The position numbers were made by a program, and so were the translations under genes. Below the pieces are notes generated by a model. That model made no database searches. It saw nothing but the letters and a program-made list of their open reading frames with translations, and had not been told where the DNA came from. From positions 1,493,001 through 1,557,000 of the forward strand of contig NZ_RJUU01000001.1 in the NCBI RefSeq assembly GCF_003751445.1: a stretch of 64,000 bases of DNA, written 5' to 3'. The first letter of the stretch is position 1, and each line of letters begins with the position of its first letter. Positions 41,237-45,017 of this stretch are shown in pieces. Origin of the DNA: Streptomyces sp. 840.1 (GTDB taxonomy: Bacteria; Actinomycetota; Actinomycetes; Streptomycetales; Streptomycetaceae).

Positions 41237-42648
41237 TTGCCGGGGCCGGCGGCCCTCAGCGCCTCGTACAGGTCCACCGACGCCGCGACGCGGTCCGCCA
41301 CGCTTTCCGCGTACACCGCGTCCGGGCGCTCGAAGGCCGCGCGGTGGGCCGAGCGCAGGAACGTCACGACGCCCAGCGTCCGGCCCCGGCTCCGCAGCAC
41401 CGCGCACAGGGCGTGCACCGAGTCGGCGGGCCACTGCCGGCCGGCCGCCCACTCACCGGCCGCCCCGGCCCCCGCCGTGGCCCGTACCGAGCCCGTGCGG
41501 TCCACCGCCTGAAGGGCCGGGTGGCCCTGTACGTACCGCAGCGGGATACCGCCACCGGCCACCGGCAGGCACGGGCCCGGCGCGTCGGACGGCGTCGCCG
41601 CGGCGCGGACCAGCCGCTCCCCCGCGACCAGGTCGATCAGCGCGTGGTCGGCGAAGCCCGCGAGCGCGTAGTCGAGCGACGTGGTCGCCGCCTCCATCGG
41701 GTCGTCGCACTCGGCCGCCGAGCGCGAGGCCCGGTGCAGCTGGTTCGACCGGAAGCGCACCCGGTCCGCGTCCTGAGCGGCCAGTTTCGCCTCGGTTATG
41801 TCCTGGAACAGCCAGCCGACGCCCAGCGGCACCGGCTCCTCCGCGAGCGGCGAGGCCAGCCGCATGAAGCCGCTGCGCCAGCAGCGCCGCCGGTTGCCCT
41901 CGGCCGTCCGCAGCGTCACCCACAGCTCGACGGGGGCGGGCGGGTCCCCGGCGGCCAGCACGTGCTGGAGCGCGCCCTCCAGGTCCTCGACGCCCTGCAC
42001 GATCAGCTCACCCAGCGGACGCCCCAGCAGCGCCGTGCGGCCGCCGCCCAGCGCGCGGGCGGCGTGGGCGTTGACGACGGTCGGCCGCAGGTCCACGTCG
42101 ACCAGGACCACACCCCACGACGCGTCCTCGAACAGTGCCTCGCTGAGCGCGATGGCCCGCTCCAGATCGATCTGCGCGTGGACCTCGCCGAACGCGCAGT
42201 ACACCCCGGCCGGCTTCCCGTCGGCGCCCCGCACCCCGGCCGACTGGGTCCGCACCAGCACCCGGCCGCCGTCCTTGCGCAACAGCGCGAACTCGTGGAC
42301 CTGGCGCCCGGGACCGTCCATGACGGCCATCAGGCGCCCCTGGATCTCGCCCGCGTCCGCCCGCCGCACGGCCCAGCCGGCGAACCCCGGCCGCCCGACG
42401 GCCTCCTTCGCCGACCAACCGAGAATCCGCTCCGCCTCGCGGTTCCAGTGGGTGACGGTGCCGTCCGCGTCGAAGGCGCAGAGCGCGGCGTCCATTCCGT
42501 CGAGCAGGGCCGCCAGCAGCTCGGACCCGGGAATCGGCGCTGGTCCGTCCGCCGCCTCCGCCGTTTCCGCCGCAGGTGCGGGCCGTCCCTCCGGGCCTTC
42601 CTCGGGCCCGAGAGCGTCGGTGGTTCCGCTGCTCCTGGAAGCACTCAT
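41215..42648 (-). CDS. PAS-PAS-GAF sensory protein
   Basis: 477 aa, ATG at 42648. PAS 1 (about residues 42-160: LLDGMDAALCAFDADGTVTHWNREAERILGWSAKEAVGR), PAS 2 (about 165-295: VVLVDVDLRPTVVNAHAARALGG), then a GAF-like domain (about 300-470: ASLDYALAGFADHALIDLV-type start and GVVTFLRS end). No kinase, GGDEF or PP2C domain follows. It is probably a truncated-architecture cytoplasmic sensor that acts through a partner. Its last codons lie inside a dispersed repeat. Confidence 0.85.
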   Translation of the reverse strand: MSASRSSGTTDALGPEEGPEGRPAPAAETAEAADGPAPIPGSELLAALLDGMDAALCAFDADGTVTHWNREAERILGWSAKEAVGRPGFAGWAVRRADAGEIQGRLMAVMDGPGRQVHEFALLRKDGGRVLVRTQSAGVRGADGKPAGVYCAFGEVHAQIDLERAIALSEALFEDASWGVVLVDVDLRPTVVNAHAARALGGGRTALLGRPLGELIVQGVEDLEGALQHVLAAGDPPAPVELWVTLRTAEGNRRRCWRSGFMRLASPLAEEPVPLGVGWLFQDITEAKLAAQDADRVRFRSNQLHRASRSAAECDDPMEAATTSLDYALAGFADHALIDLVAGERLVRAAATPSDAPGPCLPVAGGGIPLRYVQGHPALQAVDRTGSVRATAGAGAAGEWAAGRQWPADSVHALCAVLRSRGRTLGVVTFLRSAHRAAFERPDAVYAESVADRVAASVDLYEALRAAGPGNPNPSGV

Positions 42649-42759
42649 CCCCGTACCCCCTGCAGGACGTGTCCGGCATTACTGCACGTCAGACCATTGA
42701 ACTCGAACGTGACCCAGCACACAGCGACTTCACCGAAATCAACCCCACCGATAATTCGG

Positions 42760-42789
42760 TTGTGCGGCCCCGGGGGTGGTTCCTAACCT
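42760..42789 (+). promoter_or_regulatory. Candidate promoter of the structured RNA
   Basis: TTGTGC (42760-42765) and TAACCT (42784-42789) with 18-bp spacing face the RNA. Transcription would start near 42796, just upstream of the strong ribosome-binding sequence. Confidence 0.45.
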
Positions 42790-42795
42790 GTGGGT

Positions 42796-42990
42796 ACACA
42801 TGAAGGGAGGTGCTCCGGAAGTGATTTCTTTTCGGACTCGTGAGGTGACTGCGGGCTGACGCCCGTCGTCGCACTCTTTGCAGTGCAAGGCCGGTCGCCG
42901 GCCAATCCCAAGCAGTCACCGACCCGCAGGCTCGCCGGTTAGTCCGGCCGGCCCCTCCGCAAGGAGGGACCAGAGCCTGCGGGTTTCTGC
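42796..42990 (+). ncRNA. Candidate structured RNA with two multibranch junctions
   Basis: Helices are all perfectly paired. Domain 1: P1 GGTGACTGC (42844-42852) with GCAGTCACC (42912-42920), enclosing hairpins GGGC-TGAC-GCCC (42853-42864), GCACT-CTTTGC-AGTGC (42871-42886) and GGCCGG-TCG-CCGGCC (42889-42903). Domain 2: P2 ACCCGCAGGCTC (42922-42933) with GAGCCTGCGGGT (42973-42984), enclosing GCCGG-TTAGT-CCGGC (42934-42948) and CCCTCC-GCAA-GGAGGG (42953-42968), a GNRA tetraloop. TTCTG follows P2, so domain 2 can end transcription. No known riboswitch or housekeeping RNA signature is recognised. Confidence 0.65.
42821..42859 (+). CDS. 12-codon small ORF overlapping the structured RNA
   Basis: AAGGGAGGTG (42803-42812), nearly perfect to the anti-Shine-Dalgarno sequence, precedes a GTG by 8 nt. 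The peptide is MISFRTREVTAG; the TGA lies in the loop of the first hairpin. An ATG at 42800 is in the same frame. A ribosome translating it would cover the 5' strand of P1 and open domain 1. It is either a leader peptide or a short regulatory peptide. Confidence 0.45.
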   Translation: MISFRTREVTAG

Positions 42991-43004
42991 GTGTCCGGGG
43001 CGTC

Positions 43005-43697
43005 CTACGGACACAGCCGCTCGACGCGCCACGCGGCCCCGTCCACCCCGTCCGCGTCCTCGCGTACGTAGCGCAGCCGGTCGTGCAGCCGGTTCTCGTG
43101 GCCCTGCCAGAACTCGATCGTGCCGGGGACCACCCGGAAGCCGCCCCAGTGCGGGGGCGCCGGGACCTGCTCGCCCTCCGGGTAGCGGTCCGACAACTCC
43201 TCGTAGCGGCGGACCAGCTCCTCGCGGGAGCCGATCACCGAGGACTGGGCGCTCGCCCAGGCGCCGAGCTGGGAGCCGTGGGGGCGGGTACGGAAGTAGG
43301 CGGCCGTCTCCTCGCGGCCGACGCGGGACGCGGTGCCGGTGACGATGACCTGGCGGGCCAGCGGGTGCCAGGGGAAGAGCAGCGACACGCGCGGGTTGGC
43401 GGCCAGCTCACGGCCCTTGCGGGACTCGTAGTTGGTGAAGAAGACGAAGCCGCGCTCGTCGTACATCTTCAGCAGCACCGTCCGGGAGGACGGCGCGCCG
43501 TCGGGCGTCGCCGTGGACACCACCATGGCGTTCGGCTCGTGCAGCGCTCCGCCTGCGGCGATCTGCCGGAACCAGCGGGCGAACTGCTGCATGGGATCGG
43601 CGGCCAGGCTGTCCTCGGCGAAGCTCTCGGAACGGTACTGCTCGCGCATAGCGGCCGGATCGGTGGTGGAATCGGAGGAGGAATCTGCGGTGGACAC
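43005..43697 (-). CDS. pdxH: Pyridoxamine 5'-phosphate oxidase
   Basis: 230 aa from the GTG at 43697 with AGGATGAG upstream; longer frames upstream look non-coding. FMN/PLP family marks: [21 protein letters not shown] near residue 55, [13 protein letters not shown] near 85, [14 protein letters not shown] near 108, and the C-terminal [15 protein letters not shown]. It oxidises PNP/PMP to PLP with FMN and O2. The last bases pair with the next (GTGTCCG and CGGACAC, 42991-43014), giving a small terminator hairpin over its stop. Confidence 0.95.
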
Positions 43698-43907: not shown

Positions 43908-45017
43908 ATGTCCGACTTCGTACCCGGACTCGAAGGAGTCGTCGCGTTCGAAACGGAGATCGCCGAACCCGACAAGGAAGGCGGTTCGCTCCGCTACCGC
44001 GGGGTCGACATCGAAGACCTTGTCGGCCACGTGTCGTTCGGCAATGTCTGGGGGCTGCTGGTCGACGGGGCGTTCAACCCCGGTCTGCCGCCGGCCGAGC
44101 CCTTCCCGATCCCGGTCCACTCCGGTGACATCCGGGTCGACGTGCAGTCCGCGCTGGCGATGCTCGCGCCCGTGTGGGGCCTGAAACCGCTCCTGGACAT
44201 CGACGAGGAGACCGCGCGCAACAACCTGGCACGGGCGGCCGTCATGGCGCTCTCGTACGTCGCCCAGTCGGCGCGCGGGCAGGGGGTGCCGATGGTCCCG
44301 CAGAGCGAGATCGACAAGGCGCACTCCGTCGTGGAGCGGTTCATGATCCGCTGGCGCGGCGAGCCGGACCCCCGCCACGTGAAGGCCGTGGACGCCTACT
44401 GGACGTCCGCCGCCGAGCACGGCATGAACGCCTCCACGTTCACCGCCCGCGTCATCGCCTCCACCGGCGCCGACGTGGCCGCCGCGCTGTCCGGCGCGGT
44501 GGGGGCCATGTCGGGCCCGCTGCACGGCGGCGCACCGTCCCGCGTCCTCGGCATGATCGAGGAGATCGAGCGGACCGGGGACGCCACCGCGTACGTCAAG
44601 AAGGCCCTGGACAAGGGTGAGCGGCTGATGGGCTTCGGCCACCGCGTCTACCGCGCCGAGGACCCCCGCGCACGCGTGCTGCGGCGCACGGCCGAGGAGC
44701 TGGGCGCACCGCGCTTCGAGGTGGCCCAGGCCCTGGAGAAGGCCGCGCTGGAGGAACTGCACGCGCGCCGCCCGGACCGGGTGCTGGCGACGAACGTGGA
44801 GTTCTGGGCGGCGATCATGCTGGACTTCGCCGAGGTCCCGGCGCACATGTTCACGTCGATGTTCACGTGTGCCCGTACGGCGGGCTGGTCGGCGCACATC
44901 CTGGAGCAGAAGCGGACGGGCCGCCTGGTGCGGCCGTCGGCGACGTACATCGGCCCGGGGACGCGCAGCCCTCGGGAGATCCCGGGGTTCGATCAGCTGG
45001 CGGACCTGGGCAACTGA
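43908..45017 (+). CDS. Citrate synthase family protein (type II, short)
   Basis: 369 aa, ATG. Catalytic residues are in place: His in GPLHGGAPSRV near residue 205, His in GFGHRVYRAEDPR near 244, and Asp in EFWAAIMLDF near 302. The length and the N-terminal YRGVDIEDLVGHVSFGNVWGLLVDG are those of the second actinomycete citrate synthase (SCO4388-like, from memory) and of 2-methylcitrate synthases. It condenses acetyl-CoA (or propionyl-CoA) with oxaloacetate. It is divergent from pdxH. Confidence 0.93.
   Translation: MSDFVPGLEGVVAFETEIAEPDKEGGSLRYRGVDIEDLVGHVSFGNVWGLLVDGAFNPGLPPAEPFPIPVHSGDIRVDVQSALAMLAPVWGLKPLLDIDEETARNNLARAAVMALSYVAQSARGQGVPMVPQSEIDKAHSVVERFMIRWRGEPDPRHVKAVDAYWTSAAEHGMNASTFTARVIASTGADVAAALSGAVGAMSGPLHGGAPSRVLGMIEEIERTGDATAYVKKALDKGERLMGFGHRVYRAEDPRARVLRRTAEELGAPRFEVAQALEKAALEELHARRPDRVLATNVEFWAAIMLDFAEVPAHMFTSMFTCARTAGWSAHILEQKRTGRLVRPSATYIGPGTRSPREIPGFDQLADLGN

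Follow-up and report, generated by a model that had tools for sequence, protein, structure and literature searches.

Positions 42796–42992 (+) of the window (the whole 64,000-nucleotide stretch of Streptomyces sp. 840.1 DNA analyzed here) lie between two genes that, in the reading-frame list, are both on the opposite strand and that we take, following the initial annotation, to be a PAS/GAF gene and pdxH. In a covariance-model search of 42400–43400, this segment matches Rfam family RF02471 (Ms_IGR-5) with 100 bits (E 4.4e-23), against a gathering cut-off of 45 bits, and the match spans all 184 model positions (1–184): the locus is the Streptomyces copy of Ms_IGR-5, labeled “Actinobacteria sRNA” in the portion of the Rfam listing available. 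The initial annotation had recognized no known RNA here and had called for this very search; a score so far over the cut-off rules out an unknown RNA family, and by that annotation’s own rule the RNA is then no longer novel, a verdict that leaves the open reading frame (ORF) inside it untouched. IGR-5 reportedly goes back to work by Li et al. in 2013, as citing papers have it. Transcripts are on record, too: Ms_IGR-5 carries a “yes” for RNA-seq validation in S. lividans (PMC8079986), is counted among the sRNA transcription units of S. avermitilis (PMC8780764), and is overlapped in M. smegmatis by a transcript which is apparently longer than reported before (PMC10454040).

Folding reproduces the structured RNA with two multibranch junctions that had been described from the letters (all features below are on the + strand). 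Folded alone, 42844–42920 forms a four-way junction of a 9-bp helix, P1, and three hairpins (−40.6 kcal/mol, z −4.9), and 42921–42985 forms a three-way junction with a GCAA tetraloop (−50.4 kcal/mol, z −7.2); the RNA as a whole has a z of −5.17, with 0 of 200 shuffles equally stable, and its computed optimum rearranges P1. Fold and covariation both support the strands of P1, GGTGACTGC at 42844–42852 and GCAGTCACC at 42912–42920; the fold places between them a GGGC-TGAC-GCCC hairpin (42853–42864) with a stop codon in its loop and two further hairpins (42871–42886 and 42889–42903). P2 follows (5′ strand 42921–42933, supported by the fold and by compensatory changes in 20 sequences; 3′ strand 42973–42985, from the fold) and encloses P2a (42934–42952), to which comparison assigns a larger loop than the computed fold draws, and P2b with the GCAA tetraloop (42953–42968, fold). 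Beyond this earlier structure there exist a pseudoknot (PK), in which CGGACT (42833–42838) pairs with AGTCCG in the P2a loop (42941–42946), and a helix that takes in the 5′ end of the RNA, P3, in which CAC (42797–42799, adjoining the putative 5′ end) pairs with CGTG (42839–42842); both emerge from covariation among relatives. The window copy is weak in this respect, its P3 having only three Watson-Crick pairs. The end of the transcript is taken as near 42992, where the Rfam match ends.

The family is widespread. At an E-value of 0.001, the Rfam model finds a match in 54 of 61 relatives and in 57 of 296 genomes sampled across the phylum (26 of the 296 exceed the RF02471 cut-off), as against 0 of 14 control genomes; an exact pattern for the 5′ half of the RNA is carried by 174 of 296 genomes sampled from the class and by 78 of 396 from the phylum, and the reversed pattern occurs 0 times among the matches listed for these class and phylum samples. 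The RNA is common within the class and turns up in fewer than half of the genomes sampled from the phylum, where divergent copies may be missed; 31 of the 57 matching phylum genomes score under the cut-off, and a model that included P1 and P3 might recover them. Two copies are seen only in one genome (G281) among the matches listed for the phylum sample. In one family (f6), 20 of 24 genomes carry the exact pattern, the four others (G345, G613, G630, and G648) pointing to loss or divergence. The pattern occurs 0 times in viral contigs, which speaks against virus-borne copies. Two matches fall outside the phylum (L278 and L306), both in metagenome-assembled records, labeled Bryobacterales and Acidobacteriota, and are possibly mis-binned; L306 resembles the actinobacterial type found outside the class.

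For comparison, 228 loci were collected, 222 of which fit the motif expression and 201 of which are distinct once 21 duplicates are removed; of the six off the motif, five are members by eye (an off-motif base or, in L107, a shorter core) and one, L083, is a chance hit. The search expressions demand GGAGGTG, GAGGTG, and T-purine-purine at the stop, or an RF02471 match instead, so the conservation of these letters is not counted as evidence below; TGG was always permitted at the stop position, and the preference for stop-bearing matches altered no choice. A later scan supplied 112 further loci (of 120 stretches) with sequences unused before; these are relatives of the first set, and the check that they provide is a repeat, not an independent sample.

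Could the RNA be the leader of a downstream gene? Attenuators do work by translation-dependent rearrangement, which speaks for a cis-acting leader (attenuator or riboswitch). Here, however, pdxH lies on the opposite strand, and the nearest gene on the same strand, ORF 43908–45017 (presumably citrate synthase), begins about 900 nt downstream, past pdxH, just as the initial annotation had it; nor does any metabolite riboswitch family appear at an E-value of 5 or better in 42400–43400. Across 19 loci, 27 of 30 neighboring reading frames match Pfam and belong to many unrelated families, among them gyrase A, DNA ligase, phosphofructokinase, and arginine deiminase; the only recurring neighbors in these loci are an aminotransferase (L031 and L032) and an ABC transporter (L034 and L178). 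These mostly unrelated neighbors rule out a leader of the downstream gene as a working candidate and leave a cis-acting role exceedingly unlikely; because the neighboring genes differ so widely, Ms_IGR-5 is probably a stand-alone RNA gene.

The promoter suggested initially holds up in part. A TAnnnT element stands 21–24 nt upstream of GGAGGTG in 173 of 201 loci, and in 133 of these 173 a TTG precedes it by 23 or 24 nt; the window has TAACCT (42784–42789) as a −10-like and TTGTGC (42760–42765) as a −35-like element at this spacing, from which we infer that transcription starts at about 42796. A strict sigma-70 scan of 42650–43100, on the other hand, is empty. An A occurs 52 nt before GGAGGTG, that is, about 42 nt before the putative start, in 155 of 200 loci, like part of an UP element. 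At the other end, the case for a terminator in the T-rich stretch after the GCAA hairpin domain is weak: the scan of 42650–43100 finds no U-rich terminator, so P2 is rejected as a plain U-tract terminator. In L053, L054, L056, and L057 another hairpin can be seen by eye downstream of P2.

Downstream of the putative start, GAAGGGAGGTG (42802–42812) forms an extended Shine-Dalgarno (SD) sequence, an 11-nt run, one G-U pair included, complementary to what we take to be the 16S rRNA tail. This run is the shortest among the 201 loci: in 163 of them, the region is complementary to the tail over 16 of 16 nt when G-U pairs are allowed. The median run is 9 nt once G-U pairs are disallowed, and 7 of these nt are demanded by the search motif. 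By this comparison, the SD sequence in front of the predicted ORF is shown to be very long. The ORF, likewise as first described, has 12 codons from GTG to TGA (MISFRTREVTAG; 42821–42859, stop 42857–42859) and includes the 5′ strand of P1, so that reading it would open the first junction. Across the 201 loci the start codons are often weak or unusual: TTG in 86, and in 20 a codon other than ATG, GTG, or TTG (CTG in 10, ATT, ATC, or ATA in 9, and ACG in 1; for example, L053, L086, and L090), which would fit an RNA that tolerates or even favors weak initiation. Long complementarity and poor starts together would suit a ribosome-binding decoy, in which the SD sequence would hold 30S subunits or initiating ribosomes, the ORF would let them leave, and the fold would protect an RNA that titrates subunits. 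However, this account leaves unexplained why the ORF spans strands of PK, P3, and P1 and stops right after them, and a single gene copy would presumably have to be expressed at a very high level to titrate ribosomes; we consider the decoy unlikely.

Is the frame itself maintained? At the stop position, the 201 distinct loci have TAG (159), TGA (28), TAA (13), or another triplet (1), and TGG 0 times, compared with about 22 expected under independent variation of the last two letters. An in-phase ATG, GTG, or TTG stands at a suitable distance from the SD sequence in 181 of 201 loci; for the two alternative phases the counts are 14 and 11. The distance from the SD sequence to GAGGTG takes all three values modulo 3 (47, 105, and 49 loci), and start and stop are still in phase; the phase is therefore no by-product of a fixed spacing. 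Among 47 ORFs of 13–15 codons, an NTG start is in phase in 38, as against 3 and 7. Because starts were chosen in phase, every ORF comes out as a whole number of codons; the evidence lies in the frame count. In the 112 further loci, stops are present in 112 of 112, with TGG allowed, and starts by frame number 106 versus 5 versus 3. Two divergent members make the same point by eye: in L104 and L107, GAGGTG lies one base closer to the stop and is read in another frame, and TTG and TAG are again in phase. Taken together, these comparisons show that an ORF of 10–15 codons has a conserved start, frame, and stop.

The encoded peptide presents another picture. In 153 twelve-codon ORFs, Glu-Val (EV) is invariant and T-[RC]-E-V-[AT] is common, which speaks for a dual-function RNA whose peptide, some 12 residues long, does work of its own. 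The EV letters, however, are demanded by the search motif, and the constant residues are read from helix-forming letters, the codons of the EV region being a paired strand. In codons 2–4 of the 12-codon ORFs, 13 of 57 distinct single-step differences (counted between sequence pairs, not as events on a tree) are synonymous (0.23, neutral expectation 0.199), and the 57 are spread 19/23/15 over codon positions 1/2/3. By this measure codons 2–4 are under no purifying selection and the peptide is not conserved. These differences, together with L104 and L107, which read the same strand in another frame, lead us to reject the conserved functional peptide that the recurring TREV had suggested and make a working peptide very unlikely. 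A conserved small ORF, in other words, need not mean a conserved peptide. The same codons have 33% GC, compared with 72% in the flanks, and are lower than the flanks in 153 of 153 ORFs, as expected of a start region that is kept open.

What the frame does share with the RNA is a strand. The comparison shows that the second half of the predicted ORF is one nearly continuous strand common to PK, P3, and P1, and that the stop codon stands directly after it: the GAC of PK and GAGGTG are 4 nt apart in 186 of 200 loci, and of these 4 nt PK takes one and P3 the other three. In a covariation scan over anchored columns, which drew on 188 of the 201 loci (183 of them distinct, with an effective number of 87), two P1 pairs rank 1st and 2nd, two P3 pairs between the leader and the bases before GAGGTG rank 3rd and 4th, and PK pairs between GGACx in the ORF and xGUCC in the loop of the first hairpin of the 3′ domain rank 6th, 11th, and 14th. 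The covariation that the initial annotation had asked for is strong in P1, as it is in P2 on 20 sequences. About half of the top 15 column pairs are not pairs of the model, and several hardly pair (the 5th in 25%), which indicates that shared ancestry contributes to the ranking and makes direct tests of each helix more telling; because the sequences are related, the permutation counts given below overstate their independence.

In PK, the pair beside the GAC/GUC core is Watson-Crick in 141 of 189 loci, G-U in 10, and unpaired in 38, compared with a permuted mean of 53.9 and a maximum of 77 in 5000 permutations, and occurs in all four Watson-Crick types (GC 63, TA 37, CG 29, AT 12). On the other side of the core, the first pair is Watson-Crick in 180 of 189 loci (164.2 permuted) and the second in 80 of 189 (50.5 permuted), with 101 unpaired; the outermost C-G pair is kept in under half of the loci, and on the first side pairing ends with the pair beside the core, the next position outward being paired in 8 of 189. 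Rare variants are compensated: GGAACG/CGTTCC in L176, GGATG/CATCC in L169, TCGACC/GGTCGA in L047, and GTGAC/GTCAC in L109. The automatic parse failed in 12 of 201 loci, of which, by eye, L176, L222, L223, L086, and L084 are paired and L104 lacks the hairpin; the GTC-first rule also mis-anchors some GGATG members, which lowers the PK count. In the 112 further loci, under a simpler rule, a PK run of at least 5 is found in 85 (mean 44.6 and maximum 54 after shuffling). Not every member has the pseudoknot, since in L104 and L107 the P2 hairpins are apparently swapped for a simple hairpin, which by eye makes them minimal versions of the RNA.

P3 stands out in the same way: in 154 of 201 loci the leader of the same locus offers the linker a perfect partner of 4 nt (permuted 81.3, maximum 93), and this holds for 58 of the 78 whose linker is not CGTG (other leaders, mean 9.6, maximum 20), with compensated examples such as CTTC/GAAG, CGTA/TACG, CCAG/CTGG, and CCGA/TCGG. 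In the further loci the count is 39 of 48, compared with a mean of 8.2 and a maximum of 15 for other leaders. In a MAFFT alignment of 45 sequences (44 representatives of the 186 loci in which PK and P1 could be parsed, plus L005, a choice which leans the sample towards structure), 92.6% of the cells of P3, the PK core, and P1 are paired, compared with 36–44% in slid versions, and double changes occur in 69 cells, compared with 15.5 after shuffling; the three inner pairs of P1 fail in 8–11 of the 45, where the alignment meets bulged members. Structure and covariation this strong are what a purely structural non-coding RNA with an incidental ORF would display. But such an RNA would have no reason for the start, frame, and stop statistics, which recur in the 112 further loci, for the absence of a permitted TGG at the stop, or for a GC-poor start region; we regard it as highly unlikely.

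The core structure proposed by this comparison differs from that of the Rfam model. The Rfam structure line agrees on P2 and on a P2a stem whose loop carries GUCC. It pairs SD letters, GGUGGU, with GCUGCC, letters which covary as P1 here; it encloses the stop codon in a long stem within P1; and it leaves the 5′ leader, GGAC, and the 3′ strand of P1 unpaired, so that P1 and P3 are absent. The absence of PK from the line is uninformative, because a covariance model cannot show a pseudoknot.

A further helix, P0, may form between a UCC just after the SD core and the GGAC that also enters PK (here 42814–42818, with 42832–42836 as the possible alternative partner) and would enclose the start codon in a hairpin. 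P0 is partly supported by comparison: one column pair is paired in 99 sequences versus 67.6 permuted (0 of 2000 permutations as high) and one in 151 versus 142.0 (4 of 2000), a third reaches 169 versus 169.8, and two have one invariant side. P0 and PK would be mutually exclusive, as would suit a switch.

Why, then, would an RNA keep a frame and let the peptide go? We favor, with slightly more confidence than doubt, a reading of Ms_IGR-5 as a translation-gated RNA. A 30S subunit would dock on the long SD sequence; the translating ribosome would strip PK, then P3, then P1, would stop where the shared strand ends, and would leave, upon which the RNA would refold. Judging from this geometry, fold and reading should exclude each other because a ribosome must open all three helices to pass; and since translation would dismantle the fold, the folded fraction would report how often the RNA is translated, i.e., the initiation capacity. 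As the peptide is free to change and the frame is not, the selected quantity would be the act of reading. The output is the least certain step: most likely, either the bared 3′ strand of P1, GCAGUCACC, which resembles part of the anti-SD sequence, or the loss of the folded form would alter RNA pairing, binding, or decay. The anatomy that the comparison assigns to Ms_IGR-5 is specific and testable: a frame that looks protein-coding, though no protein is conserved, serves as the backbone on which the RNA folds. In such a natural design, translation by itself could drive an RNA switch.

A broader version of translation gating, which we hold only tentatively and would sooner doubt than assert, takes the RNA to be an ancient translation sensor of Actinomycetota, in which a throwaway frame, which ribosomes would enter by way of an almost full complement of the 16S rRNA tail, would be the spine of a pseudoknotted fold that ribosome traffic opens and a shortage of initiating ribosomes closes; the closed or the open form would then adjust the cell in trans, for example, by baring the anti-SD-like strand. 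Such a regulatory RNA would take the act of translation as its input, and its peptide would mean nothing. The presence of the 5′-half pattern in 174 of the 296 class genomes makes a role in general physiology likelier, within the class, than a niche trait.

Each of the established systems that Ms_IGR-5 calls to mind shares one part of this anatomy. In leader-peptide attenuators of the trp, his, and erm types, translation of a short ORF decides which helices form; like these, Ms_IGR-5 would have an ORF strand common to several helices (PK, P3, and P1), and the act of reading would matter. Unlike them, it has no regulated gene in its transcript (in the window and at 19 loci) and no run of control codons, and its peptide can vary freely. 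The dual-function sRNAs, SgrS and RNAIII among them, are likewise small stand-alone transcripts with a ribosome-binding site and an ORF, but the ORF of Ms_IGR-5 lies inside the structural core and its peptide, judged by conservation only (the synonymous fraction in codons 2–4), is not a conserved functional one. tmRNA, which is small and stable, contains pseudoknots, and has an internal short frame that ribosomes enter, resembles Ms_IGR-5 in these respects; it differs in that an SD sequence precedes the frame of Ms_IGR-5, and the Rfam search of 42400–43400 reports no tmRNA family up to an E-value of 5.

That the frame is translated is suggested by the comparison and by a published account of ribosome footprints on Ms_IGR-5 in M. 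abscessus and M. smegmatis, the same source noting that classical non-coding RNAs give footprints too (PMC4974804). The anatomy proposed here would explain this ribosome-profiling signal. The passages that cover Ms_IGR-5 assign it no function, and the literature covered, outside of which most subscription journals fall, holds no account of its conserved ORF, P3, or pseudoknot; the covered part of PMC4633059 leaves the RNA unmentioned. PMC8388888 names an S. coelicolor sRNA, scr4389, which may or may not be Ms_IGR-5, and a review describes a study of M. smegmatis Hfq co-immunoprecipitation that used Northern blots and 5′ RACE (PMC4109619). One further element stands out in the column frequencies: the joining segment AATCCC (42904–42909), for which the top 45 column pairs of the covariation scan offer no partner, is conserved as AAUCC(C) among 183 sequences (P1p columns −9 to −4), before the 3′ strand of P1.
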